Source: Saccoglossus kowalevskii (taxonomy: Eukaryota > Hemichordata > Enteropneusta > Harrimaniidae). From it: DNA of 64,000 nucleotides. This document shows, piece by piece, positions 3,201 through 62,419 of this stretch; position 1 is the first letter of the stretch; the number at the start of each line of letters is the position of its first letter. The DNA lies in contig NW_003148770.1 in NCBI RefSeq assembly GCF_000003605.2, positions 686,973 through 750,972 on the forward strand, read 5' to 3'. The notes below the pieces were generated by a model. The model searched no databases. It saw only the letters and a list, made by a program, of their open reading frames with translations, and was not told the origin of the DNA. The position numbers were made by a program, and so were the translations under genes.

Positions 3201-6200
3201 TTCTATATGTCTTGCTCTCAAATTAGAATGTTCAATAAAATATTCATATTTATATTTATAATTTTATGATTGCGTTATTGCATAACCTTGTTAGATCACA
3301 GAATGTTGTTCTATTACATACAGTGGCCATGAACTGAACCAGCTGACTTTGTGAACAATAAGCATGTGTTATTCAGGATGTAAAAAATTGTGAGTGAAAC
3401 TCAAAATATAAACGAAATAAAATGTGAAATGAATGTACTATCTTACATTATAATGTTGCCGGCATGTCTTGGCATAGAGTGGCATATGTGTACCTGCACC
3501 AGGGCTCAAGCAAGCCCCCCCCCCCCCCCCCACACACACACACATAGTTAGATTATCATAGTATGGATTCCTCACAGTGTTATATCAGATTCAGAAATGA
3601 TTCCATAATTTGACAGCTACAAATATGGTACATATGCATAAACTAAAGGTAATGAAGGCAATGCTTATTAAAATATTAACATTATTAACCCACCAGGGTC
3701 TGGCATGTTGCTATGCCTTACTTACCCAACATATTGTACAAACTTTGCGGAGGGTAATAATCTGGTCGTCGTCTTATCGATTCCTTGAATGCCTCAACTG
3801 CTTCCTGTGAATAAATTTAAAGCAATCAGTGAGAATGGAAAACCTTTGCAAGGATGAAATTGATAAATAAATGAGGAGTGAAATGCTATTTATTGGAATT
3901 GAAAAAGAATTGGAATTGAAAAAGAATTGGAATCAAATTCTTCCTTACTCAAGTTTTGAGACAAAACATTAAATTATATCATACCTGCATTTTAATTATC
4001 TGAAAACATCGTTCTGATTAGAGTGTGTTTTTAAATATGCAAACCATGGTGAAATAGACAATATACCAGGGTTTTTCATATATTTAGAAGTAGGCCCAGA
4101 GCATGAAAAAAACATGAAAAGTTAAATCATTCTGTCAACAGAAATCAGCAAAAATAATATTGCCTTAGGTATTTCAGGTTCAAAAGAAAAACATGGGGAA
4201 TATAAATTTACAGAATTACGCAAACAATTTATCTATAATTGATGTATGCTAGTTCCAGGGCCAACTTCACTTAACCATGGTTGCGAGTACTAAGTTTTAG
4301 ATACTGCATCACTGTATCTTGGGATGGTTGAACATGTACACATGTCACATTTAATATAGGCTCCAACCACATTTTTTTTTTAAATTCTTCTTGAGATATG
4401 ATACCAACAAAAGATGAACAATGGCAAATAAAATATTGAATACAAAATTTAAATTTTTTCAGTGGTCGAATTATTAGATTGAGTTTAAGTTTACATGATT
4501 GTGAGATTAAAGATGTGGTTGTACTTTTAAACAGAAACATGGAAACAAACACAGAAAGATTAAAATTTACCAGGGTATATCAAATTGCACTTCTTGTCAA
4601 AATCAAGGTGGACTGATAGAATGAGAAAGTGGTCACTTTAAGTAGCTAGACAAAAATAATAAAATTATGTTTTCAGGCAAAATCCCTTTAATTTAGGGGG
4701 TGCAACAAGCAGATCTCCTGTACACTGACCTCATATTTTTTTTGATCATGTTTAAGTCTTCCCAGATTATAAAGAGCAGAGATGACAGCATTATTGTGGG
4801 TTTTAGGATCCTTTAGACCTGTATCATCTAGAGTCGCGGCATGAAGATACACTCTTTCTGCATCATCATCACGACCAACCGCAACCAACGTGAGACCAAG
4901 ATTCAAGTGAGCCACTGTAAAAAAAAAATATATTAGAGATAAAAATGTGCGGGAAGGGAAGGTTCGGATCTTCTCAGTCACGGAAGTGAAAACTGAAACG
5001 AACACGTCATGTAAACTAGAACTCAATCTTGTTTATTCATCAACAACAGCGTAATACAGATGTTAACTCATAAACAACTGGAAAGCAACTGCTCAAAACG
5101 AGCGCAAAAACATACAATGTTGCCATAGATCGCGTCAAGTAACAATTTGTAGGGCGGGAGGCGTTCCCATTGCCCGATTACGAATACGGTGTTTACTCCG
5201 ACGTTCGAAACAAATATTGGCCAAATTAAAACTGGGTGTGCTAGTTTCTCATAGCATTACATGCAAAAAATGAAATATGAAGAAAATATGGTTATGAATA
5301 AATGATCAATAATTCAAATGAATCTCCCCCACAAAGATATCATCACAAAATGGATTTTTAGAAAGCGTGACGAAATATAAACTATCGTATTGGAAGTGCA
5401 CATAAACCCCAAATTGTATTTATTGTATTCTGGGTCATTATAATATTACTCATCCAATTTGGATGTACGTGTAATATAATTTGTTTTGATCACACACATT
5501 CCATGTTTTGTTGTACATTACAATGTAGGATACTGGCTGAGATTCATTCACTATAAACGAATGCGACTTTGGGGGAACCTTGCTTAAGGTCCGCAGGTGC
5601 TTGTCTTCGACCTGGTTGATGCCAGGATAGCGCATTAAAATTGCCATTTGATAGAAAGATGATCACACAGCCCTGTCATGTTGTCCCAAACAGGAAATGA
5701 CTAGTGGCAAAATGCACTATGTGTTAGCACTAACAATTGCAATTTGCACTTACAAAATAAAAAAAAAATTCAGGAACTGTCGCCTGGCACAAAAACATTT
5801 AAAAAAAAAAAAATGTAGGATAATGTCTGGCATCTGTGATAATGTACCATATTTATTCTATTATTGTGCTTGGATAAATGACAGAAGGATGTTTATTGTA
5901 CATGCCTTCACTTTTACACAAATTTAAAACATGGCTGAATTTAGAATACTGTGGGCCAGTGAAGAATGTATTAACTACAATACATTAGAAAGGGAAATTT
6001 TCACTTTAGTAACTTGTTGACTATACTTTGTTTATATTTCATCATTTCTGTGGTTTTATAGTACAAACTACCGGTAGTAGACTTACTTGCAAGTCGAGGT
6101 CTATATCTTATAGCATTGTGATAACACACAATGGCTTCTTCAAATCGGTCGATTTCTTGAAGTAAAACACCCCTAGAAATAAAAACTTTATTGAAGTGAA

Positions 6201-9200
6201 GTGTTTCTATGAGGTACACAAAGGAGAGTACTTACATATGATTGCTTTTGAACTGTTTCCTTGGTAACCTATTTTAAGTACAAATGCTTCATATTATTTC
6301 CGCTACATATGACAAACTAAAGCACCATTCCAATTTTAATAGTTTAATCTGTGAAAGGCAATGGTACTTTTCACAAAATAAAACTAATATTTTTCTTTAA
6401 AAAATCTCAAATAAAAACCATTCTCAACTACATTTGTACAATGCAATGTAAATGTGTATATCACATGACCCTGAATTAATAAATATTTTTTTACTGGCAT
6501 ATTATTTAAAACTTGTTTTTATCTCAGTGCAATGTTTAGGTGATTTATTATGCATGTTTGTGTACATGATTTCATGGTAAAACTCATAATATCAACTTAC
6601 AACAATTCAATCTTTGGTTCATTAATGCACTGAATTTGTCTATTCGGATTTCTGCTTGTTCTCACTTGTTTGTTATGTAAGTGTTTAGAATTTCACAAAA
6701 TTGTGTACCTTTACCAGCCTGACTGGAATGTTACCTGTCGGAGCATATGGGCTGGCAGTAACATTGGTCATGTGTATTTTGTAATTTTGCCTAATGCAAT
6801 AAAAACGTATAATGACCCTGGCTAATAAGGTTCACTGGCAACAAAGTTGTCAACATGTTATCAAAAATAGGAACTACATGTACCTAGGAGTGGGACACAG
6901 CGATACAGGCAAATTTCTGAATTTGTTATCTTTGTGCCTTAAGCTACTGTGAGTTTCAAGCCCTTGTTATTTCTAGATCTATTATAAGCTGCACATATAA
7001 ATATGTAGTATTTTCGAATTTCAAAACATATTTTTGTGAAATAACAATTAAAGTGCCACCTTATTTTTTTCAACACAATTGGTGTATAAGGACACAATCA
7101 AATATATTTAAAATACTCTTTAATTAATTGTTGACAGAAATACAGTTTAATTTGTAGAAAACGCAAAAACATTGACATTTTCCAGAAACAGGTCAAAGTG
7201 ACCATTGTTCAATTCAATCCCAAAACGTATTTACCCACAAGGCATTATGACTGATGATAATTAAAATTTTCTGGAAAGTTTGTTCCATTTTTTTTTTTCA
7301 AATTTGTATGGCTTATTTACTTAATTAATATTTTTAGAATTTTCTAGAAACACAATTTTCTAACTATGATCATAGCAGAAAAAAAAACACAATTTACTTT
7401 CCCTGATGTGGCACTACTACACAGTGAAAGGTACATGGTATGCAGTGGTAGGAAAGAGACAAACAAACAACTAACACTGCACCCATTGTTATCAAAACCA
7501 GTTAAACTACAAGGTACGGTCTGTTTTATGTTCAGACACGACCTGCCACGGTTCACTGACAATATTTACACACACACTTCTTGTACAGTAGCAGCAACTC
7601 AACTAATTTTGCTACCTACATCTAGTACCGGTACATTATGAGGGACCATTGTCATAATCACATACTCCATGTGACTGACCAAAAGAAAATCAAAAAAAAA
7701 AACTTGGAGTATTTTAAGTTTTCAAATCATATAGTTGAAATTATTTTCAAAATTATATCAAAACAATCAGCAATAGTAGGGGGTAACACTTATAAATAGA
7801 ATAATTACAAAATATTGTTTCCATAGAAACAAGTTATGTTCTCTTTGTTATTTATTTAACGAAAAATTTCATTCATCAAAATATCAAGTAGTTTTTATCT
7901 TTTCCCATTTTCACTACTTCGCATCTATCCCTAATTTTGAAAAAATCAAAACCTCTGAAAAACACAAACTGATTGAGGTTTCACAGGTTAGAGACATATT
8001 GTCAATATTCAAAGACTCAAGTGATTAATAAGATCGAGATGGATATCGCCTCAAAAGTAAGGTCCCCAATTAACAGGATGTACAGTAATAACCATGGAGA
8101 TACTTACAAATTATAGTGCACATCCGCCATATTAGAACGATACTCTAAAGCTTTTCTGTAAGCTGTTTCAGCTTCTTCTATGTTACCCTGTGATTTCAGA
8201 ATATTAGCAAGATTGCCCCACGCTAAAAACATACAAAGTGTAAAGCAGACATGCACATAATTTTAATATTCACAAAAACATGCAGTACACACACTAGGAT
8301 TATGCAGAGCCACTGGAATACTAACCATTTCATTTACAGACATATTCACTAATAGTATTGCAACTGTATTTATCTTGCAATTATTCAAATCTGTAGTTTT
8401 ATATACATATCTACCTTTCAATTTGATGCATTAACAAGCAGAGTGTCAGCTGAAACAGCTCGACATTGTGATATATTGTTGGAATACAAACAAAATAATG
8501 GTGGGTTGCCAATGGGTTTTTTAAAAATAAGTTGAAAATATAAAGATGATGCTGATAACAGATAATGACAAACAATCAGTAGCTCAAAAACAAAAAAAAA
8601 CACTTTTTTTTTACCTTTTGGTGGGTTGATTTTAATGCCACTTCTGTACAACGATTCCTCAGTTTGCCAGTCTTGGTTTCTCAGTACTGTACGTACACTG
8701 AACAACACTAATAACACTGATATCGACACATGTAAATACTTGTGATGTGATTTCTTTATATTGTTGTGTATGACGCATATTCCAAGCGAAACAAGCAACG
8801 TATAACCCATGCTCGGAATGTACAAGATGCGTTCGGCGACAACAAATCCAACGTAGAAGAATATATTTGTTGCTGGTATGAACGGTAAAACCAAAATTGA
8901 CAATGCAACAATCGCCACATGTACGCTTTTAAACTGTTCGCATGTTTTATACCGATAATCATAATGCGCGAGGTCTACACTTCCATTGGAGTGCTTTGTC
9001 AATTTTTGGAAGTCAGCGTTTCTATGCATTTGACGTAAACAATACCAAGTGAAAACTACTAAACTGATGAACATCAGCACTGTTGCAAGGTTACGAAAAT
9101 CTTGTACATTTTCTATCAAAGGAATGGCTTCCATCGACCAATCAAAACTCAGTAGATATGGGTTGAGCAGCAGCCAGAGATTAAAAGCGGGCAGAAAGTT

Positions 9201-12200
9201 AAAGGTCAATGACCTTGTTAGTACACTGCTGTGATTGGATGCTGGATTATCCGCTGGTGCAAACTCCGGAGGGCTACTCCCCATAATAGAGACTCTGGTT
9301 GTCAGGACAACAATACCCCATAAAGCTGAACATAATAGACCAAGAAAAAGAGAACGGTGTTTTACCTGCAACAGAATCAAGTGTAAATATGAAGAAGACA
9401 ACCCTAATAAAGCTAAGAAAATACTGGTAAAAATATTTTTGGTAAACTTCAAAAATTTATGCACATGTATGCCTTTTTTATTTTCATTTTGAAATTGTCA
9501 TCAAATTTAAAAATTTTCAAAAAAAAAACTTTTTTTTTATCATTTTTTCTAAAATTTTGACAAACAAATCAGTAATGCAGCAACCAGTAACATGAATATT
9601 TTGGGAATGACTAACTGAGTTTTAGTTTATGATGTGTGAACTGATATAACAAATTAAAACATTTAAGGGACGACGTCAAAAGATCGATGTCGGATAAAAA
9701 ACTTAATTGAATTCCTTTAGTTTTTTTCCAAACCCCCCTACCCCCCACTGAAACTTAATTGATAAATATTGGTCATGGCGTCAGACTACATTCACCATTA
9801 AATACAAATTGATAATAGGACAGTAGTATTGCATAGCAGTTGGTTGTCGGGTGGGTGTAAAAAGAGTTTACAAATGCATCTCATTTGATGCACAGATTTA
9901 CCGGTACACTCGAACCAAACCATTTTTCTCTTGTTTTTTTCCCTTTTCGGTTATTTCTGTCCATGATTGGATAGAACTACAAATTTTTTTGACTTCATTA
10001 AAAAATAAAATCGTTTTTGTAGGATGGAAACTTTTTGAGGTCAAAACCCCCCACCCCCAAACTAAAGGAAATAAGTTTTTTATACGACATCGATCTTTTG
10101 ACGTTGTCCCTAAGGGGATTAACCATTAAAAACTCTAGGATGGGAAATGGAAGAAATGTGCAAATTATTTTTTTCTTCTCTTAGTTTTGAGTTAGTTTTT
10201 TTTTTCATGATGATGTTGTTATTATTTTTTTTTGCTTTTCTCTATAAAATGGGTCTAGATTTATTTTTTTTTCAATTTTTTTTCTGTGATGGTATTTTCC
10301 CCCAAATTCCTGATACTCAACCCACAATGCGAAGATATATACACTATCTTCACTCATCACAGATTACATACACTGTAATGTGGACTTATGGTACACATTT
10401 GTTGAAACATAAAAACAGTCTAGTTTGGGTACAAAGTGTGCTTTCTTTACGATTAGTATAAGAACTTTCAGAAGCCAATTCATAAATTATTTTGAGTGTC
10501 TGGATCAATACAGTAGTGTGAAAATGTATGTAAACCTGTCCCAGTCTGCTTGTATACTGTTTCAGGATGGCTAGCGGCAATAAACTGTCTCCTTAATATG
10601 ATTTACAACATACTCTAGTCACATACCACACACTATATATCAACTTAGGTGACATGTTGGTATTTTGCAAGTCACTGATGCCCCCCCCCCCAAAAAAATT
10701 ATCTTATTAAAATATATCAAATATCATCATTGCTTTTTTTTGTAAACAACCATCGCTGGCAAAATTATAAATTATTAATCTGGAATTCAGTAAATATAGA
10801 CATATTAATTACTGTAGAACTTTTTATTTTTGCTTAGAATTAATTTTCTCTATTTTCGCTAAAGGAATGATTCAGTGAAAATAAAATCTATCGAATATAC
10901 CTTTTTTCCTATATTTTACGTTCAACTTGTCAAAAATCATTGAAAATGAATTCCACACAAAACGCCCAAAAAGTCTTTTCAGTAAAAATTAATTCCAGCT
11001 AAAATTAAGTATTTTACAGTAGACAGGCATAGTAGCCACGTAGCATCTGTTTGTATCACATGTTATGTAAACATACAATATATTGTACCCGTTTTATTCA
11101 TCGCATTTCACTCCAAAATGACACCGTGCAGACTGTGACATTTTAACTTTGTAAAATCAATCTGTGGTGACAATGCGAGAGGCCATTCTCGACTTTACTT
11201 TCACTCACCTTGTAAAAGACTTGGAAAATATTGAGTGGAGGAATTTTATTCCAAACTAAAATATCATATACAACATTGACAGCCAGTACAGTGATTCCCT
11301 GTTCTTTCCATAGCATACTACATGCTGCACACACTAAACTTAACACTAAGTTACGCCATGCAGTCGCTGTGAAGTGTCGCCGGCTAATGGGATCGTGTAC
11401 CTGCAGCCAAGCGGCATCTCTACTTTGGCAATACTTGATATACATCAGGAAGGATAAAAGAAAGAACATTGCAGCACCAATTTCTGCTCTTCCAACAATC
11501 CCTGCAACAGCTTCAGTATGAATTGGATGAGTCGCGAACATGAGTCCACACAGAAAACCTTGTTTTTTAGATTTTAGTAAAAACTGAGACAGTGAAGTAA
11601 ATAGCGCAACAACAACACCATGCATGATGACATTGGTGAGGTGAAACCAGAATGGATTGAGTTCCCCTTGTAGGTAGTTGAGTCGGAATGATAAAACACA
11701 CAGAGGACGATAAGATTTGTGACTCCCGCTGTGTGTAAGCGGTGTTCCCCAAAAGTCATCCATAAAGATGTTCTGCCATGGTGTCTCCGGCAACAGATCT
11801 TGGTTCTTTTGAATTGCACGACTGGAATGTGAACAGAAAGTTAATTTCATTATAAATTTGTGACACGTTGCCATGGAAACTGTTTAATATTCTGTTGTGA
11901 GACTAAAAAATGTTAAATTAAATCTGAGATACAAGTTTTCTAATTTGTTTTAACAATCATAAAAATTTAACTTTTTAAAATTAGTACCAATGTGATGACT
12001 TACAAATATTATTTACAAATTATCATACTTCCCAAATTTAAATAAATTTGAATATATTTTTGTTATTTTCACCCCCCTCCACTACAATTTACATATTGTT
12101 TGACTTGAAGCATTTAATGAAGGAAATTTTGTTGAGTTTCCACAGTAATTTTGTTTTTTAATTATTTGTTCTCCAAATGACAAATAATTTTCATAATACA

Positions 12201-24002: not shown

Positions 24003-27000
24003 TTACAATTCATCGTGGGTTGTTCCTTTCCAGCCAAAGAATGTTGTAGGTCTTTCGTTGATGTCACGTTCACGTTTCACAAATGCAGAGAATGATGATA
24101 CGCAGTTTCCAATGAAGTGATCGGCTTTACCCATGATGTACAAATCTAATTGTGGTTTCTCTGGATCTAAGTGAAACACTTCAATCTGAAAATAAAAGTG
24201 AATATTTGTGTCAGAGCTGTAAAAGTTACCATCAGCTTGCCTATGATTACCCACAATCCTGTGTAGTTTGTACTGAGATATTGGTTGGTAAAACTTTGGT
24301 AACTATCACCTGTACACTGCTGTCTGTGGATATGCTTTGTGCATTCTGAGAACATAGAATAGTTTGGTGTTTTGTTAGAGTAGTACAGTAGTGTTTTTTG
24401 TATGTATTAAAGTATAAACAAACTTTGTTTAAAGCCATAAAATATAATTCTCGAATAACTAATAAATGAAACAGAAATATGCTTATTAGCAGTCAGCTCT
24501 CTTTTCAGTTGCAGTTTTAATTTAAAAAGTAATAAATAACGTGAATTTCAATGTGCTTTCTCCACTTACATTTAGATCCTCAAGTCCGTCAGCAAGGTCT
24601 TCCAACATTGGTTGGTGGTCGGTTGCCACGTAAACAGACTGTGCATGCATCCGTTCAGCAACTTCACGCACCTCCCGCACTACCTGCACCTCAGTCTGCA
24701 TACACATCGCCCTGGTAACTGGGGAAGCTCTGTCTCTATGGTAACCAACACATTGTTGTGAAGACATCAAGTGTGTGTACGTTTTACCATCGGCCATGTT
24801 ACAAGTTGATGACTGAAAAAGTAAAAAACAAATTTATGTTATATGCTGCAGCGCTGAGATATGAACACAAATTGTTATATAAATTGAAATATGCTCCAAA
24901 TCAACTAGTCCGAGACAGATGGTGAATATTCATGAATTGGTTCGAGTTGGACCATTCACTCCAACTGTTACAGAGGAAAATTTCCACAGTCATTTAGGGT
25001 GTTCATTAGCTTCACTGATGTGTCATGGTTTCTATGGCAACCCAACCATTGGTATTCGCGTACCTGAAATGAATCATGGGGAAAAAAACTAAATCCGCAG
25101 GCAATGCGTTAATGACGAATTTTTTAAGATTCTGTCTACATGCAATAAACTTACCCAATCAGCGCCATTTCGTAAATGAATAGCAATAAATGGGCGTTTC
25201 AAATTTTTTTCGATGTAGTCATCACCTTCTTCAACTGTCTCTGGATTCCACTGCAAGTATCTTTGTAGTGGTTCGTTTGCTTCCGTGACTGGGAACTGTG
25301 CTGGTGCCCCCATCATTGTGATCACTGGATGCGACGATGGATCGTACGTGTTTACCCAACCTTTCCTCCATTCATCGTAATCTACGTTGTAATGTAAATC
25401 ATCCCAGATCTCTGATCGATCAAAGTTGATGTCAAAGTATTCCCAAAAATCTTGGAATGGATTACCAGGCTGTTAAAAAAAGCAGTCATAAGTATGTTAA
25501 TTTACTTATTAATAAACAATTTTTTTGGGTGGCCAATAACTGCACATGCACAATGATTAGGCATCCAATATATGCTTTACCCATGATGCAATGTACAATT
25601 CAGAGTTCTTTGTGATGACATACCGGTACTAGTAATAAGTCAAGATTTATAGTTTATGAAATGTTCAAATTAATACACAAAACAGTACCCCCAACAAAGA
25701 TCTAGTTTTAATCAGATTGGCAATATCCAAGTACCAAATCAATATTTTTAAAAAGTTGTGGCAATATTTTTTGACAACCACCTGTTAAGGGCAATAAAAT
25801 AGGCTTTGCTTCTCGTCCTTGCACACGTCAGTTTGAAACCTGTGCCTCACACTTCTAAAAATTGTGCATATTGGTAAAGTGAACCACATATGGTAGAACA
25901 GGAAAAGTTTGTTTTGTTGATCCAAATAAACTGTTGAGGTATGCATTGTTACACACACACCTAGCTTGTTGTGTTGTTCAAATCAAATAATTCCCCACAA
26001 ATTAGAAATCAACTTAAACTCAACTTCATAAATGCTGCTTTTGAAGTACATTATACAGACAATGGTACGCATCCCTCACTACTAATGAAATTAATGAAAA
26101 GTGTTATAAGCTCAACTCACCCTAGGACAGATCCAATCACCGTAAGAATCTTCGTTGAAGTCAGCCGCTTTTCTAGAGCAGTAAGCGATTCTCTGTCCTT
26201 GTGGCCAGTGGTATGGTGCAAGATCATCCATAAAATCCTCCATACTGATCACACTGTGATATTCTTGTACGGCTTCCAAGTCAAAGATGTCAGTAAATGG
26301 AACATAAATCTGAAAATTAATATTTATAACTTTTAGTTTATCAAGTCTCTTCAAAATGTTTATTCCCATGATGGTTTAATCTGTCATTTCCACTTTCTCA
26401 AGGTTATTTCATTCCAGTGAGGGGAGGGCAAATCATAAGGTGGGCTTGGAAAATTCTCAACTCTCAAATAATCAGTTGCTAAATACAGGAAACAAACAAA
26501 AATTCATTGATCATATGCACCATCTTTCAAGCACTATCGAAATTGTCAAATAATCCAATGTAAATTTCTGCAAGGTCAGACTATTCAATTAAAGATGTAC
26601 ATTAAACGCACACCAATTTCAGTGAAAAATATTTTACAACCCAAGTAAAAATGCAACAAAGAGAAAAATTATAAACTAACAAATAAGTCACTAAACGAAA
26701 GAGGTATACAATATAGAGAGTACGCTAGCATCTTAAGGCATTAGACTGATTTGTATTTTATGTCAGTCTGAATATTTTCAAGTGTTAATTAAAGCGCGGT
26801 AGTCGTTGCGCTTCCGCATGTTCAACATTTGTGTTGATAAATATTGATTTTCCCACAATCCAATGCGCTCTTCAAATGGAAATCACAAGTATGAGGTTTG
26901 ACCTGAGCGCGACTTGCACTGAATACCGCTGGTGACTCCTTCGATACTTTCCAATCACATGAAAATTACCTAATTAAAGCTTGGAAACGTGTCAGTTCGT

Positions 27001-29148
27001 ACTCGTTGATCTGCGCAACAGTCAAAGTAGCCATCTTTGCTTATATGAGACCCATAAATCTCGCAACTACCGCACTTTAAATATCTGTTCAGACTTGGTA
27101 ATTGTATGAATAATTGCTTGTTTATTTTAGTTTGAATTTTTTTTCTTGAAACTCATCTCATTAACATAATGTGCAGACATCACTACATTGATGATTAGAA
27201 CTTGATAATTGTACTTTGAGACATGAATAAAGCTGGCAGATTTGAATTTGTTTAAAATTAATTAACCTAATACCTAGAGAGACTCTGCACAAGAAGATTG
27301 AAACAATACATGAATGACAGGAATGTAGGACACGAATGTTTGACAATTGTAGCATTGTTTGGTATTGTTTTAAACAAATTAATTGTTAAGACAAAAAGGA
27401 AAGCAACTTGTCTCTACATGTAATCAAGTCTTTAATATATCTACACTGTTCATCTCGTTCATTTTATCAGAAACAATAGTACAGTTCTGAGTCATGCTTG
27501 AATACTCTTCGGCTGGTTTATTTGTTGGGTTTTTGACCCATTCAATGCTTTATCATTAATTTCCATAACAATATAAAGTTTATCACGACCGTACTGCTTC
27601 ATGAATTATTCATAGTATTTTCAACCAATGGGAATATGCCACACCATGTCAAGTCAGTCTCGGCGTGGGAAGACATGCCAAAGAAAGAAAGTTACAATAC
27701 CCCCTAGGTTACTATTATTTTGAACAAGAACCACGTTAAAAGTTGCAGACATTCCGATGTGTTTCTGAGATTGTTTCAACAATCAGGTGGTTATTTTACG
27801 GAATTAGTATGAAATCTACAAGATTTACGTCACGAAAGGAATGTTCATGTAATCCAACAATCTATGTGTAGCCTAGACAACGGTCACGGTTGTTCGGTCT
27901 ATAATTGCCACTGGAAAACAATTCCCAGATGAATCATATTTTAAAATATAAAATCTTACATTCTTAGCATCATGTCCCAAGTGATGTTGATAAACTATGA
28001 AAGGAGGAGCCACCAGAACGCGGTCTAGGGTCTTGGCAAAGAACAAGGAACCTATGAACTGATCGACCTGGTTACCAAAACGTCCTGAAAGTGAAGAAAA
28101 GGAAAGAAAATTATGCTTACATTTGGCGCTAGGTGGATCGGTAGCTGTATGCCGTGACCGTGAGATTTTTTGCCGCAGGGGTAGTCAATGAACGGAGGAA
28201 TAGCTAGTGTTCGGTTGATCGTTTTAGCGAAGTAAAGTGAGCCAAGGAGTTGATCAACTTGGTTGGTGAAACGGCCTGTTAGTAGACAAATAAAACAGAA
28301 AAGAAACCGTTTAGACGGTGTTAATTTTACTATCAGTCTCTACCAAGTGTGAATAATTGGTGTGTAATGCAATTACTAATACATTCGGCATTTTGTCACC
28401 ATGGCCGATGTCAGTATCTTTACTAGAGACCAAATTGATCTTAACATAAAATAGCATGCATATATTTTCAGAAGGAATATATACTCGTGGATTTTATACA
28501 ATGCACTATTGTAAACATTACAACACCAAATAAAACGATTGTGGATCTGGGAAGCGTACACAACAGGGCGTGTCATCGATCATGGCACAGGTATCGGCGA
28601 AGTTCACAACATTACATGGACAAACGCACGGCTGTGCTACACGATAAGATTGCCGATCTTTCACTTCTAAGCATAGTTTTTAATATATTTCGTAGTATAC
28701 ATTTAAAATTACAATTTAAATTCCAAGATTCAGGTGCGTGTTGCCCCACACCCATTTAGTAGTATGCAAATCGCATCGACCCGTTCAAACACGCCTTGAA
28801 CTGGTAATCAAATTGATATCATTACGTTCGACGCATTTAGCGAAAATATAAGAGGTAATTAATGTTTACATGATGGGGAATGTATCCGGCATAGATATGT
28901 GTACTCTGTGTAATACTGGTAATCAACGAAAATGAAGCCGCTTGCTGTATAGAATCCACAACTCTAACAGCTACCTGAATTACGCCTTCTTCGATTTATA
29001 CACGATGACATTACTACTTACCCATACATGGACAGTATAAAACATAACCTCTTGGATCCCATTCAATGGCTTTGCACACACTGGATGTTGCCATAAACGC
29101 GGCTAATACGAGAACGCTTCGAACGGCCACGCCTAGAACGCACGCCAT
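24003..29148 (-). CDS. POFUT1: GDP-fucose protein O-fucosyltransferase 1, 6 exon positions, 393 aa (403 aa with alternative exon 2B)
   Basis: ER enzyme (GT65) that transfers fucose from GDP-fucose to Ser/Thr of folded EGF repeats, notably Notch and its ligands. Exons (5' to 3'): 29022-29148; exon 2A 27960-28084 or 2B 28121-28275; 26121-26309; 25155-25469; 24570-24812; 24003-24185. All junctions are GT-AG and phases fit. A signal peptide spans about residues 1-27 (MACVLGVAVRSVLVLAAFMA...). Then follow YVLYCPCMG, GRFGNQ (43-48), GAPAQFPV, IHLRNGADW with R247 (human R240 equivalent), [35 protein letters not shown] (354-374) and a C-terminal HDEL (390-393). HDEL is a canonical ER-retrieval signal where vertebrates have RDEF. 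Length is close to human (388 aa). It is convergent with RIOK1. The duplicated exon 2 is described separately. The start codon is the first ATG, and it directly gives the signal peptide. Confidence 0.96.
26789..27080. mobile_element. Family B MITE in POFUT1 intron 2
   Basis: About 292 bp, from TTAATTAAAGCGCGGTAGTC to CAACTACCGCACTTTAA. The terminal inverted repeat AAAGCGCGGTAGT pairs with ACTACCGCACTTT. The core includes TTTGTGTTGATAAATATTGA and TTTTCCCACAATCCAATGCG. It is homologous in reverse orientation to 33688-33970. Confidence 0.85.
27960..28084 (-). other. POFUT1: POFUT1 exon 2A (canonical form)
   Basis: 125 nt, entering with one base carried from exon 1 (ATG G|GA) and leaving in phase 0 (AAG AAT|GTAAGA). 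It encodes GRFGNQVDQFIGSLFFAKTL, then DRVLVAPPFIVYQHHLGHDAKN. It keeps the canonical GRFGNQ loop and the YQHH of vertebrate POFUT1. It lacks the NRT sequon found at the equivalent place in human (N62). The acceptor is CTTCACTTTCAG. Confidence 0.93.
28121..28275 (-). other. POFUT1: POFUT1 exon 2B (tandem alternative copy)
   Basis: 155 nt with the same entry phase (carried G|GC) and the same phase-0 exit (CCA AAT|GTAAGC), and an acceptor CTACTAACAG. It encodes GRFTNQVDQLLGSLYFAKTI, then NRTLAIPPFIDYPCGKK and a longer tail ending LPIHLAPN. It shares 22 of the first 32 residues with exon 2A; 17 of those 22 shared residues use a different codon. The loop glycine is Thr here. It retains the NRT sequon but not YQHH. 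It is not a decayed copy: it is open throughout, with intact splice signals. Confidence 0.88.
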
Positions 29149-31828
29149 GGTTTTTCGGGGCTGAGAGTGTCTGAGTGAAAGTGACAACATGGACGAAGGT
29201 GATATTTATAACAGCCAGCGATGTACCACCTAACTTACTAAATATTATTTATCTATTGTGTAGACTGATTCAGGTACAACAAAAGACACGTCGGCGTGAT
29301 GGATATAAAGGCGACCTTCAAGAAAGGTACACGTCGTCGTACTCGATGATGATGATGGCGTGATAAGTGCAACGAAAGATTGGAGGGCCCAATACTCGGT
29401 AGCGGTACTGAGTTTGGCACTCGACGATGCTCTGCGAATTAATTGAGGCAAGACCAGACTAACCCAGAACAATTACAAAATTAGGCTAGTAAGAGATTAC
29501 TAGACTTACAGTCCCTCTTTATTAGTTGTCTGAGTAGTAGAGTACAAAATAAGGGGTCAGAAATCTGTTTAATCAACATCGACTTCTCACACTAAGCCTG
29601 TCTGCTTTAAATTGATATATACAATTCCGATTGTTCTGTAAAAGTCGGCCCTTCATTTAGTTTCATAAATAATATGTGTCAGATTCAAAGACAATTTCAA
29701 AATTTTATCTCAACACTGACGATCAGTGATATATATTACGGTGTGTAACGTCACAAAAATACAAATATAAAAGTGCCGGATTTACAGGTTATTTTCTTTT
29801 CGTAGTTTGATAGCCAATATTTTGTTGCTGACGTTTTCTATCTCGAGTAGGCACATCCAGATACCGTTACCGTCTGTTGTGGGCCCCGTATATGTATTCA
29901 CTGACAACTACGAACACACAATATACATATTATTTTCGGGTTTTATCAGGAGTTAATACGCCACTGCATTTAAATGCCATGGCTACATTATATCTACTTG
30001 GATGTAGATACAAATATATCAGAATCTTGTAAAGTTCAAGTTGCTGGACTTCTTCTTCCGAAAAAAGGTTATATGTGTCATAAATGATTAAGTGCATTAT
30101 TTAAGTTGCGTTATAATTTACTAATGTCTGTTCAATAGTTGTGATATTGGAACTGTTACGACAGTACCTGTTCCGGAGTCAAGGTTAGTGTATTTATATA
30201 CCTCGTAGACCTGTTTTCTAAAGTATATGGTGTATTCAAGCATAGCAAGCAATACAGTGACCATGATTTGGGCGACACAAACAAACTATAATAAAACTGC
30301 TTACTTTGAACCTTTTCAATAATAAAAATACAATATATAAACAAATACACATTAAAACCGTCTATGTCATTTTTATATAAACATTTTGGGGTGACACTGA
30401 TAGATTCGTTATTTATCGGAAATATGCTTTGAATGGTTGCCATCATAACACCGAACACACGGCATTGTGAATACTATGTCGAATCAAAGTAAGCATGTAC
30501 TGCGTACGTGGCTCGCGTATGGCACCAACTATCTACATGCCATTTCAGCGAATTTGACTCGATGCATGAATTAACCGAATTTTAATTTAGCTGCAGTAAA
30601 AACGATCTCACTTTATTAGTGACATCTTGAATTAGCGAAATTACATATTAGTTAGATTAGCATGCCAGCTAAAAGACACATTTTACAGCAATTTGTTGAA
30701 CTACGCCATCACCAGCGACACACGTTTAGCATCATGATTTTTACTTGCTTGCACCGCGCCACCAACAGTTATCAATTCTCTTACGTTCGTTTTTACGTGT
30801 TTGCGTTAATACGCAATGCAGACAAGAACAAATCTCAAGATTTAATTTTACACGAAGACAACATGTGGGAAATACGTGTATACTTCACCATTTAGAGAAA
30901 TGGGGACAGTCCAGTGGCGTAGTGTGACACCACGTCCTGGGATTTAAAAACAATTATTATGATTTTATTACTAAACTATATTATTTCCAACTCATTTTTC
31001 TTGCGAAGAAGTTTCTCACAGAATATATTGTAATGAGGTACCAAAAGTCTATAAAGTTGAAGAAAAATAATGTTTTATTTTTTTCACGGCAATTAAATAT
31101 GATTTCTTTTCAATCACGAACACAAAATTTAAAATGGCACTTTCATTCAAGTCCAAATAATAATGACTTGTGGCTGAATGGGCATGTTGATAGTACCGAC
31201 GTTGTTTTAACCACGGTTATTATACGAAGGTATCTCAGAGCATATGCATATTTTTTGATATGTTTATTCCACTTAACCCTTATACAAAATGACATATGTG
31301 GTACGTTTTTGTGTATATACATTGCGTATACACAAGTAAATACATCCTCGTTATAAGAATAATTGTTTCCGAAGAAACTCCTGTTTACTCATTTGCCGTA
31401 GCAAAGTTTTTTTTTCAGTGTGGAGTAAAATTATTGGGGTAATGACAGGACACAGAAAACACAGCAGTTTATTGACAGTTGAACAGATTTATTGCAATAC
31501 TAATACAATCATGGCAATGCTAGGCTTATATGCATTCAATTCGGACGGGAAGAGTGTCAATTACATCGTTACCATTCGTCAATTAAGATGCGCTATGACT
31601 GGATACTTTTTACATCCTGTCATATGGAGTTGGTTACATAATTGAGATGTATGATTGGGTGAGAGACCGAAGGCCGTCGTCTGTAATTGGTCTCATAAGG
31701 GAGACTTGTGATTGGGCAAGAAGTTAAATGTCGTATCTGAAATTGTCACCAAGCTTGGTGTTTTTGATTTCCAATATATTTTGGGTCATTATTATTTGAA
31801 ATCTCTTGCCATCGTCTAAATGGAGAAA
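29149..31828. other. Upstream of POFUT1; no gene seen
   Basis: About 2.7 kb of AT-rich sequence. The first few hundred bases must contain the POFUT1 promoter, but no TATA or initiator is convincing. The short open frames here have no recognisable motif and no codon structure that I trust. Confidence 0.5.
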
Positions 31829-36230: not shown

Positions 36231-37087
36231 TTTACTTGGTGTATGGAAATACGTCGTACTAGACATTACTTGGTGTATGGAAATACATCGTACTAGACAT
36301 TACTTGGTGTATGGAAATACATCGTACTAGACATTACTTGGTGTATGGAAATACGTCGTACTAGACATTACTTGGTGTGTTGTAAATACATCGTACTAGA
36401 CATTACTTGGTGTATGGAAATACATCGTACTAGGCATTACTTGATGTGTATTAAATACATCGTACTAGGCATTTCTTGGTGTGTAGTAAATACATCGTAC
36501 TAAGCACTACTTGGTGTGTAGTAAATACATCGTACTAAGCACTACTTGATGTGTAGTAAATATATCGTACTAAGCACTACTTGATGTGTAGTAAATACAA
36601 CGTACTAGGCATTACTTGGTGTGTAGTAAATACATCGTACTAGGCATTACTTGGTGTGTAGTAAATACATCATACTAGGCATTACTTGATGTGTATTAAA
36701 TTCATCATACTAGGCATTACTTGATGTGTAGTAAATACATCGTAATAGGCATTACTTGGTGTGTAGTAAATACATCGTAATAGGCATTACTTGGTGTGTA
36801 GTGAATACATCGTATTATGCATTACTTGGTGTGTAGTAAATACATCGTAATATGCATTACTTGGTGTGCAGTGAATACATCGTAATAGGCATTACTTAGT
36901 GTGTAGTAAATACATTGTACTAGGCATTACTTGATGTGTAGTAAATACATCGTACTAAGCACTACTTGGTGTGTAGTAAATACATCGTACTAAGCACTAC
37001 TTGATGTGTATTAAATATATCGTACTAAGCACTATTTGGTGTGTAGAAAATACATTGTACTAGACATTACTTGGTGTCTAGTAAATC
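36231..37087. repeat. 35-bp minisatellite, about 24 copies
   Basis: Unit TACTTGGTGTGTAGTAAATA then CATCGTACTAGGCAT. The first units (to about 36420) are a distinct sub-type, with TATGGAAATACRTCG and AGACAT. Later units carry GTAGTAAATACATCG with GGCAT or AGCACT, so higher-order homogenisation blocks are visible. There are no unique spacers, so it is not a CRISPR. Confidence 0.96.
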
Positions 37088-38583
37088 AAGGTAAAGTGCG
37101 TTATTAACCCATAATGCATCATGGGACTTGCGATGTACTCTCGGGCAACCGCTGATAATTTAAATGCATTCCACGAGAACATGAATTTTGTTACATTCAA
37201 GTTAAGTTCACGAATAGTAACCGACCCTCGGGCAAGACCAATATTTAAAATTTTACAATCTTCGCCGGAAATCGCTGATGGAGCGTGTAGTTGATTCAAT
37301 TTATCCGGCGATATTTTGCAAATTGAGTCGATTATGCTAACTGCTGTTAGTTGGTTGATAAATAGACAGACGAATCGTGTAGCAGTCGTTGTCTGCGTTC
37401 ACGATACTCCGTAATTGGTGCCACGTTAGTACACATGAATAACAACAAACGTTTTGACCATGGACCTTGGGGCGTCAATGTAAAATTAGACTGTAGTTGC
37501 TCTCCTAATTCGCATTAATTTTCTGACTGATTCAAAATTCAAACACTTTGATACAAAATATTGACATGTGAAGAAAAAATACTATTTGACGGATTGCCAT
37601 TAAAGAAAACGCAAAGTTGATAACATTTTAACTGACACAGTGACAGTAACAGTGACGAGTTAATAAACAAGGCTTTTTTTAGCACGCATACAGCTTTCCA
37701 GGACAACAAGTCGAAATATTCAACTCGATGATTTAAAAATCTTTGAAATAGAATACATTCATATGTTTGTTGCCTTGCGTATAAATCTTTCACATGGAAC
37801 TGATTTAATGATCATCGGACTATAGCGTAGCTTATCGTTATCTGATATAATATATTATCGCGCTATTTTGGATAACATTAAAGTACAGACACTGCTGTTT
37901 TTCTCACCGAAAAAAACAACTACTTATCTTTGGTTCCTGACTGAGCTGACAACTTTCCTTGTATTCAACTATCATTTCTATCTGTATAGCTATGCAACAC
38001 ACGTAGTGACCCATTGGGACAAAACAAGCACATATCTCCAACATATCTCCTCGATAAAGATAACAGATTCAGAATTCTCAAATGCTTCGCTTCTTTGTTC
38101 TATGTACCCACGCCGTTCTTAGTTTTAAAAGGACTGCCCTTGCACGCCATGTTCGTGCTTTTTTCGTGTAAACACAGGAAGCATAGGAACTATATTAAAC
38201 TACGCACCTAGCCTGTATAAAGGTGTTGGCTAGTATATAGTGTATAAATAGACAAGGCATGAAGGTTTTACCGAGCACACATTTTTAAACTGGAAAAATG
38301 AACGGATGAAACGTCAAATTAATTTGCTTTCTAAAAAATACTAGTTTTAAAAGTAATATTTGCTCTTCTAAAATTTGCCAACGCCTAACCTTAACCTTAC
38401 TTTACCAATATTGAATATAATATATCAAGAAATTGACCCCATTGACGAATTCTGAGTGGTGTGTGCCGTTTTCCCGGCACAGTTGGAGGCATGTCCTATT
38501 TAGGATTTGTCATGCACCGATCACGAGAATAATTTAGCCACGCACGAATCAGTTAACAATGTACTCATTAACACATACACACA
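37088..38583. other. Intergenic, no gene seen
   Basis: AT-rich DNA between two minisatellites. Open frames at 37539-37793 and 37868-38122 lack recognisable domains. Confidence 0.5.
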
Positions 38584-39147
38584 TTTCAATTCAGTGTTGT
38601 ATTTTTCAATTCAGTGTTGTATATTTCAATTCAGTATTGTATATTTCAATTCAGTATTGTATATTTCAATTCAGTGTTGTATATTTCAATTCAGTGTTGT
38701 ATATTTCAATTCAGTATTGTATATTTCAATTCAGTGTTGTATTTTTCAATTCAGTGTTGTATATTTCAATTCAGTGTTGTATATTTCAATTCAGTATTGT
38801 ATATTTCAATTCAGTATTGTATATTTCAATTCAGTGTTGTATTTTTCAATTCAGTGTTGTATATTTCAATTCAGTAGTGTATATTTCAATTCAGTATTGT
38901 ATATTTCAATTCAGTGGTGTATATTTCAAATCAGTATTGTATAATTCAATTCAGTATTGTATTTTTCAATTCAGTGTTGTATAGTTCAATTCAGTGTTGT
39001 ATTTTTCAAATCAGTATTGTATAATTCAATTCAGTAATGTATAATTCCATTCAGTATTGTATAATTCAATTCAGTATTGTATTATAATTCAATTCAGTAT
39101 TATATAATTCAATTCACTATTGTATAATTCAATTCAGTGTTGTATAT
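38584..39147. repeat. 20-bp minisatellite, about 28 copies
   Basis: Unit TTCAATTCAGTGTTGTATAT with GTGTTG/GTATTG and ATATTT/ATTTTT alternatives. The second half drifts to ATAATTCAATTC. The 20-bp period, with no stop codon in the unit, creates long artefactual open frames (38507-38984) reading (QFSVVYFNSVLYISI)n. Confidence 0.97.
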
Positions 39148-39775
39148 TGTATTAATGTAAGTCGCTATGGTATTCGTACATACAATGAACAACAGTTAAA
39201 TAGAATCGTAACACACTTTGTAAATGTAATGTATGTCTTACGCATCTAGTACAGTTTGGTTTATTAGCGATCCAAATAGGCCTGTTGACAATCAAATGGT
39301 TGGTTAATCCAAATTTACTGAAACCTCCAGTTTAGCCTAATCTAACAGCAAATTTACAACGGACAGATCAGCAGTGTAAACAACATCAACAATGATGAAT
39401 TCCTCGTGTAATCCAAGAAATTGAAAGCTTTCCCCTTTGTAGTAATCTGCCTGACCACCTACACTTTTCAATTACATCCCCAAACCATTGGTAAAATAAG
39501 TTTGCACACGGTACGCTATGCAACCCGCTAGATTATAATCCCAAATAACATTATCATTACTGAAATGCACAGGGGAGAACGAACAAGGGTGTAAATGAAA
39601 TCGTACGCGAAATTATTCACAATTAATTAGAGCAGAGGAATACAGGAAAGTGATAATACGATGACATGTACTCTCGCATATATCAAATTATAGCTAATAA
39701 CAACAGGAAAATGGCAATACCAAGTCTCAGTAAATGAAGCAAATAAAATAGCATCTGTTAACATTTCAAAAATCC

Positions 39776-43205: not shown

Positions 43206-46098
43206 CTAATATAAAGTATAAAAGTATAAACACAGTCCCTCTATGTATACATAATACATACATAATCCACATATAATTATACAATATAATCCTCGGTAGA
43301 TGTGAAATTCAATATAATGTTGTTAGTTGCTGTAAACACAGACTGATACGTTAATCTTTTTTCTTGTTTGTAAAACGACTCATCTATGTTCGTTTTTATC
43401 TACTGTGCAACTAAATTGAATCACCATAACAACACATACCCTGCTATTCGTGATCGATCGTTTTATCTAAACTACTTAACTTACTCCATTTATCAAAACT
43501 TGTGGTTATTGAAAAATACGCAAATTCCTGTAATATACATGTAAAAATTTGGAATTCGACTCTCTTGGAAATTGGAAAGAAACTGGTGTATAATTGCAAC
43601 ATATGTATCGGATACTGTTACTATTTCTCCCACTGAATAACGTCTTACTTACTTACTAAAAATCGAATCTAACATTTCTTGACTCAAATAATATTCTTCT
43701 TTAAAAATGGATGTCATTTCGAATGACGTATCGTTATTCAATATTCACTGGGAGTGTTGTGTATCGTGTGCGCCTGTCCTTAGTACTAGTATGCTTCTCA
43801 GCTGTCACGTGACGGTAACTGGTAAACAATGGAATCGTCAACACACTGTAATATATGCCTATGAGAAGGCTTACTTAAACGATAATGAATTCTGATTTAC
43901 CGATTTTCGTTAAAGTTGAATTACAATAACAATCGGATTCCAATAATTTTTCGAAATAAGTGATGTTCGTTGTCACTTACTCTTTTAATCATTATTTAAA
44001 AAATAATGTTCGAAATAATATACAAATGGATATAATATATACACACAAAGGAAACGACTCATCGCCTTTTAATCAACTCTAATAATTTATCATTCAATAT
44101 TGGGTATACATACAGGAAGACGTAGGTACATTTTTGCGACATAATCCAGCTCATATATTAGCAAGCAGCCATATTAAGCTTATAGTTTTATTTGTCATTT
44201 GTAGACCAAGAATAGGATTATTTTTCCCTGACGTGCCACATAAACACGTTGAATAACACCGATGCCAGATGAGCATAATTGGTTGTATTCCAGTTAATCT
44301 TCTAAATATATCAGCTATATTAGAGTGGTGCTCCTATTCACAACGATGCATTATGTTTTATAAAGGCTGGATTAGACTTACAGATTGCAGTCTGCTTGCG
44401 CCAATTGTGGCAGCGATGGGCATAAATGAAATTACGACCTCAATGCAAAACAACACAATTCCTGAGATTTAATATAAAGATTTTGCATTATTTTCAATTT
44501 TCCATATAAAGATCTCTCTACTTATCACATGTATGTCATGTGGTGTAATTATAGACCTAATCAAACGCGATTGTTATCACGTGGTACGTGATAACATCGT
44601 TTGCATTATTGGCCTAAATTTATCTTAAATACCATCGACAAATAATTGCTGATATTCAACAAATTGCGCATCACTGGTGACATCGAGCGAGAAGGTATTA
44701 CACACTTCAGGAACAAATCTGCATGTTATAAAATAATTACATTATAAAGCATTTTCTGTTACTTTGATGCGAATGTTTGAAATGAAATTCGACACATTAC
44801 GCGTTGAATCAACCGGAAATTGCGTGCCTATATGATTCACTTTTGTCGTACTCTATTACACTTGTCATCAGTCGCCGTTGTCATACACGACGGTAAAGGA
44901 CAGGCTTGTATTCGGAAATCCGTTTAAACAAGAATTTAACACGACAGTCTCAAATACTGTTGTTCTAACGCAGTTATTTCGCTTGGAATCTCGTTGACTT
45001 TAATGCCATGGCAACAGTGTCATAGGTCGAACTATTCAGATTGCTGTTATTGGTTGTTTGAACGCTCGGCCGTGACGTCACACAGTTGCAGTTGGCGCAC
45101 TACAACCACGGCCACGATATGTTATAACTTACAAACTTGCGTCCGAGCTTGAGTCATTTATATTCAGTATATGTCCGAGCACATCTCTCATTGCTACTCG
45201 ATACAAATAACGATATTGCGAAATAGTTGAATTGGGAACACCGTATGAGGATAAGATTAATCGATATCATCGCTTCAACTTTTGTGTGCCTTCGAACTCC
45301 TAGGTAAGCCTTATCCGTGGTACATTGATATGCGGGATATGTGCCTAAACACAGGGAATGTGACGTAATGTGTGACGTAATGTAAAACCGAAAATTATTT
45401 AACCGAGGGATATTGAAGGAAACTGCAACATCAACTGATGAAATAAGGCGCTGTGTCTTATATCGAGATCTACGGATTCTTGATTCAATTTGGCTCTGAC
45501 ACGTATCTTGGAGAATTTGTTATAATTGCGATCACTATCACGTAGACTAAAAGTTGAAGGAGAATTGCCGCGTACATCTTCAGTGTGCTAGGTACGTCTA
45601 CGTTGTTTGTAATTGTCCGAAAACGGCGAGCTTGTAGACTAATCGTCTCTAAATCGCGAAATGGACGGTCAGCATGTTACATTACGTTTGCGTGTGTGTG
45701 TGTGTGTGTATGTCGGTAATGTACTAACCTGAACCGGATCAAGCCACTATCGCGTAGTCTTCCAACGTATGTGATGTTACGTTCAACGTGACGCTGCCGA
45801 CAAGGTGTGTTTTGTTTATCAGCACATTGCGAGAATGCAAACACGTTCTCTGTAATGCTGTTTAATAAATCAAAGTCGGCGTGTTTCCACTTGGGAACCT
45901 CAGCTGGACAGGATACGCTTTTAACGGTGATTAGACCTGAATACTGGCTCACCAAATGATTTCATTAAATCCGGTATGAGGTTGACTGTTCAATAAACAC
46001 ACATTTCTCGGTGAAACCAACGCAAAGATTCTGCCAGCAACGACTAGTGAAACGTAACAACTCCAAAATAATTGTTGTGACGTTGACTGAAGAGCGTG
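43206..46098. other. Intergenic region upstream of the GPCR
   Basis: It must include the receptor promoter and any untranslated first exon, neither of which I can place. It holds a GT microsatellite at about 45689-45708 and a palindrome at 44552-44616. No other coding region is supported. Confidence 0.5.
44552..44616. repeat. 65-bp near-perfect palindrome centred on CACGTGGTACGTG
   Basis: TAGACCTAATCAAACGCGAT, TGTTATCACGTGGTACGTGA, then TAACATCGTTTGCATTATTG and GCCTA. The arms pair almost throughout, and the centre carries a CACGTG E-box. It could form a cruciform or be a tiny fold-back element. Confidence 0.7.
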
Positions 46099-47106
46099 AT
46101 GGAAAACCAAACATTTTACGAAGATAATGGCGATACACGAAATATTCTTGAACCGTTGGTTGCATTGATCTTGATATTTTTAACGGTTTTAGGGAACATT
46201 GTTAATATTATAGTAATCACCAAATCGAAGGATATTCCCCAAATACCAAGATATTTCATGATGTCACTGGCGTTCGCCGATTTAGGCGTCGGTATTAATA
46301 CCATATTTGCAGTGTACCCAGCAATATTCGCTCGCTGGCCGTACGGGGACGTATTCTGCTTCATCGTTGGAGTACACTCGCATATCTTCTGTTCAATTTC
46401 CATTACGTCACTGCTTCTCGTAAGTATTGAAAGATACATCTCAATAAACTGGCCACTGCATTACCATAATTACATCACGGATAAGCGTGCAATTATCGTG
46501 ATTATTTCCATGTGGGTGATATTGGAAAGCTATGGATTCCTGTTAGCACTGATTCAGGATTTTAATTTCTATTGGTTTAATCCTGGCGTTCTTACATGTG
46601 TACCTGGATACGGGAAACCGGAATATAGGATCTTCACCGTGGTTGGCCTGGTAGGCTTCCTCGTCATTCCCACCATCATCATCGTTTATATCTATATTCG
46701 TATCATGAAAATTTCACAGAGGCACTCGCGGCAGATCGTCGAAGTGAATACAGCAAAATCAGGAGATTCATCACACACACGCAAACAAACAAGTCAGAAT
46801 CTCAAAGCGGCTAAGATGTTGTTCGTTGTCTCGGGGGCGTTTGATATTGCGTGGTACCCGTATGGTTTAACTGTTATCTACACAGCGGCTTCTGGCGATG
46901 TGCTCCCTCTCTATGTGGACTTTGTAACCACATGGCTTGTCTACTCAAATAGCTTCTGGAACGTTCTTATCTACAGCATTATGAATAAGAAATTTAGAAG
47001 AACCGCGCTGCAATTCTTGCGACAGGCATTTCACTGTGAGAAAACGACAAATAACGTCGTCCATGTTGTGCCAAAAGACACGGACCACAGTGCATCAACT
47101 ATGTAA
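46099..47106 (+). CDS. Orphan class A (rhodopsin-like) GPCR, single exon, 335 aa
   Basis: An intronless seven-transmembrane receptor for an unknown ligand at the plasma membrane. The start is the ATG at 46099; an upstream in-frame GTG is not a start. N-glycosylation sequon N3-Q-T. N1.50 in LGN (N33), LAFAD with D2.50 (D61), C3.25 (C87) and ECL2 C167 as the conserved disulphide, ERY at 111-113, W4.50 (W139), P5.50 (P191), Y5.58 (Y199). TM6 has F248-DIAW-YP, so CWxP becomes AWYP. TM7 has N288-V-L-I-Y292 instead of NPxxY. Position 3.32 is Ser (S94), which argues against an aminergic receptor despite an overall amine/melatonin-like look. The tail is short, with no clear palmitoyl cysteine beyond C-E-K. 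The family is one of the large lineage-expanded invertebrate rhodopsin groups; I cannot name an orthologue. Confidence 0.93.
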   Translation: MENQTFYEDNGDTRNILEPLVALILIFLTVLGNIVNIIVITKSKDIPQIPRYFMMSLAFADLGVGINTIFAVYPAIFARWPYGDVFCFIVGVHSHIFCSISITSLLLVSIERYISINWPLHYHNYITDKRAIIVIISMWVILESYGFLLALIQDFNFYWFNPGVLTCVPGYGKPEYRIFTVVGLVGFLVIPTIIIVYIYIRIMKISQRHSRQIVEVNTAKSGDSSHTRKQTSQNLKAAKMLFVVSGAFDIAWYPYGLTVIYTAASGDVLPLYVDFVTTWLVYSNSFWNVLIYSIMNKKFRRTALQFLRQAFHCEKTTNNVVHVVPKDTDHSASTM

Positions 47107-61800: not shown

Positions 61801-62419
61801 ATTTAAAATCTAGTAAATATCTCTACAACGTCGAATTTAAGCACAGGTAATGTTTCCCTTTCTACAAAAAAAATAATGTACGCTTACGTGATACATATTA
61901 TGAATTTAAAACCTAGTAAATATCCATGTAACGTCGAATCATTAAACACAGGTAATATTTCCCTTTCTACAAAAAATAAGGTACGCTTACGTGATACATA
62001 TTGTGAATTTAAAACCTAGTAAATATCCATGTAACGTCGAATTATTAAACACAGGTAATATTTCCCTTTCTACAAAAAATAATGTACGCTTACGTGATAC
62101 ATATTGTGAATTTAAAACCTAGTAAATATCCATGTTACGTCAAATTATTAAACACAGGTAATATTTCCCTTTCTACAAACAAATAATGTACGCTTACGTG
62201 ATACATATTGTGAATTTAAAACCTAGTAAATATCCATGTTACGTCGAATTACTAAACACAGGTAATATTTCCCTTTCTACAAAAAAATAATGTACGCTTA
62301 CGTGATACATATTGTGAATTTAAAACCTAGTAAATATCCATGTTACGTCGAATTATTAAACACAGGTAATATTTCCCTTTCTACAAAAAATAATGTACGC
62401 TTGCGTGATACATATTGCA
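61801..62419. repeat. 103-bp satellite-like tandem repeat, six copies
   Basis: Units begin ATTTAAAACCTAGTAAATAT, continue with CCATGTAACGTCGAATTATT, AAACACAGGTAATATTTCCC, TTTCTACAAAAAATAATGTA and CGCTTACGTGATACATATTG. The first copy is the most divergent and lengths vary only in the A-run, which points to recent amplification of units 2-6. Confidence 0.95.

Follow-up and report, generated by a model that had tools for sequence, protein, structure and literature searches.

In a survey of human genes, 377 of 629 mutually exclusive exon clusters (60%) were classed as frame-shifting and 57 (9%) as potentially steric (PMC5740500). In alpha-tropomyosin (PMC6692369) and in exons 4a/4b of OGDH (PMC7969005), exclusion is described as being enforced by the distance between donor and branch site. 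Among protein O-glycosyltransferases, Drosophila pgant9 has alternative versions of one exon, 8A and 8B, which give rise to two enzyme specificities; that exon belongs to the lectin domain and alters a charged loop near the site (PMC6115407).

POFUT1 is the enzyme that adds fucose to proteins of the Notch type. It has been described as a single-copy gene in animals, and its exon layout as conserved across vertebrates (PMC12449317). A combined-term search of the openly licensed literature returned no mutually exclusive exons in a glycosyltransferase, and the titles and abstract starts of that literature held no description of a POFUT1 exon pair of the kind reported here, which agrees with a first-pass annotation that knew of no alternative exon at this place in the gene. 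The POFUT1 and POFUT2 splice variants reportedly described by Loriol in 2006 are said to be vertebrate transcripts, not products of a duplicated exon 2. To our knowledge, splicing that rewrites the catalytic pocket of a Notch-acting glycosyltransferase is rare, and an ancient pair of exons with exchangeable donor loops would be such a case.

Here, we describe such a pair in a window of 64,000 nucleotides of Saccoglossus kowalevskii. Two adjacent copies of exon 2 of POFUT1, termed 2A and 2B, are interpreted as a mutually exclusive, tandemly duplicated coding exon, a reading to which we assign a probability of about 0.84 and under which either copy would be used. The pair resembles the human exons that arose by tandem duplication (PMC5740500) in being adjacent homologues of equal phases, with lengths that are not multiples of three and a short donor-to-branch distance; unlike the exons of that survey, which are supported by splice-junction reads, it is predicted from the DNA sequence. 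In the terms of the same survey, it would be frame-shifting and, likely, steric as well. As in alpha-tropomyosin (PMC6692369) and OGDH 4a/4b (PMC7969005), the donor-branch distance would enforce exclusion; unlike in those genes, the whole intron measures 36 nt and no unusually distant branch point is needed. With pgant9 the locus shares alternative exon versions in a protein O-glycosyltransferase, whereas exon 2 of POFUT1 encodes the donor-binding part of the catalytic domain (PMC6115407). The mechanism would be of a known kind (mutually exclusive exons); what is new to us is its place in the donor pocket of an enzyme that modifies Notch.

Gene layout and assignment to POFUT1

The window belongs to an assembly of 572 Mb in 4830 contigs. 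The gene occupies its minus strand, with all exons present and a coding span from 29148 to 24003. The coding part of exon 1 (29022..29148; WDPRGYVLYCPCM) contains the start codon, encodes an N-terminus that appears signal-like by eye, and ends in ATGG|GTAAGT, which leaves a one-base carry (G) for the next exon. Exon 2A (28121..28275, 155 nt; GRFTNQVDQLLGSLYFAKTINRTLAIPPFIDYPCGKKSHGHGIQLPIHLAPN), with the acceptor CTACTAACAG and the donor AAT|GTAAGCAT, encodes GRFTNQ and has an open frame of 52 codons. Exon 2B (27960..28084, 125 nt; GRFGNQVDQFIGSLFFAKTLDRVLVAPPFIVYQHHLGHDAKN), with the donor AAT|GTAAGATT, encodes the canonical donor loop GRFGNQ. Between them lies an intron of 36 nt (28085..28120), probably too short for splicing. 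Both copies start in phase 1 and end in phase 0, each with the donor AAT|GTAAG, and both acceptors have a pyrimidine tract; our splice-site reading thereby confirms what had been claimed of the shared one-base carry and the phase-0 ends.

Exon 3 (26121..26309, 189 nt) is in phase 0 at both ends. Exon 4 (25155..25469, 315 nt) encodes IHLRNGADW, which corresponds to the donor-binding region H238-R240, and is followed by exon 5 (24570..24812, 243 nt) and by exon 6 (24003..24185), which contains the stop codon, the SSF of the S357-F358 region and a C-terminal, ER-retention-like HDEL. The remaining introns, calculated from exon coordinates, measure 746, 1650, 651, 342 and 384 nt. The predicted proteins comprise 403 residues with exon 2A (form A) and 393 with exon 2B (form B).

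Human POFUT1 is matched end to end by both forms (E 4.4e-116 for form B, 2.5e-111 for form A), with identities of 52.3% (179/342) for form A and 51.7% (178/344) for form B; the corresponding values for Caenorhabditis elegans POFUT1 are 37.1% (129/348) and 38.2% (133/348). The Pfam O-FucT profile is matched at 2.6e-69 (form B) and 2e-66 (form A). When the three donor-binding regions R43-N46, H238-R240 and S357-F358 (human numbering, PMC7352195) were located, form B was found to have RFGN, HLR in exon 4 and SSF in exon 6, and form A the same except for RFTN in the first. By end-to-end similarity and family profile, the gene product is assigned to POFUT1, a member of GT65 (Pfam O-FucT).

Two further POFUT1-like loci, both interrupted by gaps, are found in the assembly on contigs C2358 and C1, making three in all, although a single copy is what has been described for animals (PMC12449317); only the gene in the window has all exons present. 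The C2358 locus (72.7-52.5 kb) has exons 1-3 at ~72.7-70.4 kb, a gap of 12.8 kb and C-terminal exons at ~54-52.5 kb, and the C1 locus has C-terminal exons at ~571-572 kb, downstream of a gap. Over the C-terminal part, identity to human is highest for the window gene (53.7%, 66/123), against 43.0% (55/128) for C2358 and 45.4% (54/119) for C1. In exon 2, by contrast, C2358 (27/32 identical to human) is nearer human than either window copy. Within the gap-free stretch from its exon 1 to exon 3, C2358 has a single exon 2, the phases of which, read by eye, match those of the window gene. Separately, 29 of the 37 O-FucT profile matches in the assembly fall outside the three loci, in divergent O-FucT open frames; the eight of these that were read have a G(G/P)xNxQY-like motif instead of GRFGNQ.

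Reading frame and the consequences of exon choice

Five exon combinations were translated: 1-2A-3, 1-2B-3, 1-2A-2B-3, 1-3, and both copies with the 36-nt intron retained. The frame is open in 1-2A-3 and in 1-2B-3. In 1-2A-2B-3 the downstream copy is out of frame and its 11th codon is TAG; in 1-3, from which both copies are skipped, the frame shifts and then meets a stop; and the retained intron adds 12 open codons, which lead to the TAG identical to the one reached by double inclusion. An mRNA with both copies or with neither cannot encode the enzyme. The first-pass annotation had held that skipping both copies shifts the frame and that exactly one is needed for a full-length product, and these translations bear it out on both points. 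Its TAG after ten codons likewise stands, but the misread copy, which it labelled 2A, is in fact the downstream GRFGNQ copy, here 2B. The mutually exclusive architecture that it proposed draws support both from this frame logic and from the 36-nt intron, which it did not mention.

The 36-nt intron

Intron sizes elsewhere in the genome were estimated from adjacent profile matches, 23 from myosin heads (56 match rows) and 5 from ABC transporters (23 of 42 rows); a pair was accepted when its profile gap fell between -20 and 12 positions and its span was <20 kb. The ABC transporter sample began as 11 pairs, of which 6 were dropped by this rule (the smallest dropped estimate being 147 nt), and some contigs with multiple matches were left out. 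The smallest of these 28 other introns was ~108 nt, in a sample that is small and compatible with rare short introns; the median of the 23 myosin-head introns was ~794 nt.

The distance required between donor and branch site has been given as ~50 nt, and an E1A pre-mRNA in which the branch site lies 35 nt from the 5' splice site is reported to have assembled no early complex (PMC6692369). A length of 36 nt is not an absolute bar to splicing, because human introns of 43, 49 and 56 nt do get spliced and 22 conserved human ultra-short introns are listed over a range of 37 to 65 nt (PMC4463651). Since the intron lies far below all others sampled, splicing of 2A to 2B is probably, not certainly, blocked sterically too.

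The only yUnAy in the intron sits 8 nt from exon 2B, and a branch motif at that distance is, as a rule, too near to the exon. Guessing by eye, we would place the branch site of 2B at CATAAT, next to the donor, or within 2A. At the acceptor of 2A (28278-28284, minus strand) we observed TACTAACAG, which we take to be a yeast-type branch motif; it ends directly before the AG, as a rule too near to serve that acceptor.

Homology, age and selection

The claim that the two adjacent exons are versions of one segment is upheld by the alignment of 2A with 2B, in which 22/32 residues are identical (BLASTP E 1e-16, a figure for one single comparison), a similarity far beyond chance. The first 32 codons align without gaps, and the tails differ by 10 codons (exons of 155 vs 125 nt). 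Over the 32 codons the synonymous difference is saturated (pS 0.97; 23.0/23.7 sites) and the nonsynonymous difference is low by comparison (pN 0.19; 14.0/72.3); differing codons are used at 17 of the 22 identical residues, and the differences at codon positions 1, 2 and 3 number 8, 6 and 23 of 32.

As a control, 2A was evolved without selection 1000 times for each distance. At least 22/32 residues were kept in 46.3% of the runs at 0.2 changes per site, in 0.8% at 0.4 and in none from 0.6 upward; a stop within the 52 codons arose in 57.1% of the runs at 0.2 and in 75.7% at 0.4. The observed silent divergence exceeds 0.4 changes per site. Taken together, the saturated silent sites and the control argue that the copies split long ago and were both constrained for most of the time since. 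We therefore regard 2A and 2B as old and as having been under long purifying selection, a result that is averaged over their whole history and hence is not evidence of present use.

Of 22 positions that are invariant among human, C. elegans and the C2358 paralogue, 2A keeps 17 (changed at G4, F10, A15, L20 and E31) and 2B keeps 18 (changed at L11, A15, T23 and E31), with A15 and E31 changed in both copies to different residues. Over the 32 residues, 2A has 22 identities to human, 20 to C. elegans and 19 to C2358, and 2B has 21, 23 and 22. Import of 2A from the paralogue is not favoured: V7, Q9, T19 and F29 are common to 2A and 2B against human and C2358, with the limit that V7, Q9 and F29 (not T19) are also present in C. 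elegans and that 32 sites cannot settle the matter. An alternative first exon was likewise rejected, as neither copy has an ATG upstream within its own open stretch. A scan of 26310-29148 on both strands and in every frame, for which the queries were five exon-2 sequences including the two copies themselves, showed no third copy of exon 2; the two copies scored 125.6 and 122.8, and the next best place 0.4.

What exon 2 contributes

Counting along human POFUT1 places R43 to N46, N62 (in an NRT sequon) and Y73 in exon 2, and N62 is presumably one of the two conserved N-glycosylation sites. As shown for the bovine enzyme, two such sites are required for solubility and full function (PMC7352195). 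In C. elegans POFUT1 the donor site is formed by the beta1-alpha1 loop and alpha1. Contacts to the ribose come from Arg40 and Phe41; the alpha-phosphate is bound through the backbones of Gly42 and Asn43, and the fucose through the Asn43 side chain, with N43A having 25-fold lower activity (PMC3180450). For the human enzyme, donor binding is assigned to R43-N46, and contacts with the EGF repeat to Y73 as well as to M41, G42 and N46 (PMC7352195).

The site residues Arg, Phe, Asn and Tyr (Y73) are kept in both copies. Form A has GRFTNQ, in which Thr replaces a loop glycine that is conserved in human, C. elegans and the C2358 paralogue. NRT is its only sequon, and its tail exceeds that of form B by ten residues and includes one more cysteine, just past the EGF-contacting Tyr (11 cysteines vs 10 in form B). 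Form B has GRFGNQ, with DRV at the sequon position and no sequon anywhere in the protein; this absence is not by itself unusual, because C. elegans and C2358 also have Asp there. As we read the two copies, each retains one classical feature that the other has lost.

Proposed explanation and alternatives

Under the mutually exclusive reading, the 36-nt intron would have no room for U1 on the donor and U2 on the branch site at the same time; 2A would therefore not be spliced to 2B, and the frameshift stop that follows any double inclusion would act as a second safeguard. As for function, we see an even chance that both proteins are enzymes and diverge in the functions to which exon 2 contributes, a view that follows from the retention of the key Arg, Asn and Tyr in both. 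The likeliest effect would be a tuned difference between forms A and B, as fucosylating enzymes, in donor affinity and EGF-repeat choice. More tentatively, splicing might choose the active-site module of POFUT1, with differences in donor loop, N-glycan and acceptor-side loop directing the two forms to different sets of EGF repeats or giving them different donor demand; if this were true, splicing would give the animal a switch that acts on Notch and on other EGF proteins. The pair offers two natural, frame-matched enzymes with which the role of the donor loop in donor use and EGF choice can be tested.

The strongest rival on function, which we consider possible, is that form A is a catalytically weak or dead POFUT1 that still binds EGF proteins and helps them to fold, or competes with form B, with splicing setting the active dose. 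Form A could be inactive because the conserved loop Gly is changed and because 2A has fewer matches than 2B to C. elegans and the paralogue; the Gly-to-Thr change affects the loop that binds the alpha-phosphate through its backbone (PMC3180450), and in Drosophila an enzymatically inactive Ofut1 is reported to have partly rescued Notch secretion (PMC11990869). Against this, 2A keeps the site Arg, Phe, Asn and Tyr and 17/22 invariant sites, and a change in the donor loop need not kill activity, because R43H in the same loop raised that of human POFUT1 (PMC7352195).

It is unlikely that the locus, in addition to its two coding forms, yields an RNA containing both copies (in the simplest case by retaining the 36-nt intron) that serves, through nonsense-mediated decay, as a regulated means of lowering POFUT1 dose: double inclusion and intron retention do reach one common early TAG, but retention would require splicing of exon 1 to 2A and of 2B to exon 3 within one RNA. 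Slightly less probable still is that 2A, once an alternative exon, was recently lost from splicing and persists as an intact fossil. The selection test, which averages over the whole history, accommodates such a loss, whereas the 52-codon open frame, the acceptor with its pyrimidine tract and the GTAAG donor speak against it. An assembly artefact, or two alleles set in tandem, is very improbable and was rejected on the saturated silent sites, since although the assembly has gaps elsewhere, the sole N run in the window is at 49467 and none of 13 direct-repeat families in 25500-29500 pairs the two exons.

Other features of the window and the mitochondrial contig

At 8418-9497 the minus strand carries an exon for a TMTC protein O-mannosyltransferase (PF08409, 1.3e-29), and at 4688-5032 it has weak TPR matches below curated cut-offs; the two perhaps form a single same-strand gene downstream of POFUT1. 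An uninterrupted frame for a rhodopsin-family receptor (7tm_1, 2.3e-42) occupies 46087-47106 on the plus strand. Minisatellite arrays are present at 36232-37086, 38583-39148 and 61801-62417, with units of 35, 20 and 103 bases.

Both the genetic code and the gene order of the mitochondrial contig point to Saccoglossus or a near relative. Its codons were compared with human mitochondrial sequences. Among aligned codons of CYTB, ND1 and ND2, TGA stands for Trp (22/24), AGA for Ser (3/3) and AAA for Lys (16/18), and ATA falls at human Ile sites in 13 of 30 cases (Leu 7, Met 4, others 6); in COX1, nine ATA codons comprise 5 at Ile, 2 at Leu, 1 at Val and 1 at Met. AGG is absent from five genes. The code read here matches that reported for the S. 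kowalevskii mitochondrion (PMC3121625). COX1 is inverted relative to the rRNAs, CYTB, ND1 and ND2, ND2 precedes ND1, and tRNA-Lys has the anticodon TTT; starting from the Balanoglossus gene order, that of S. kowalevskii has been derived by inverting COX1 and transposing ND1 or ND2 (PMC3121625).
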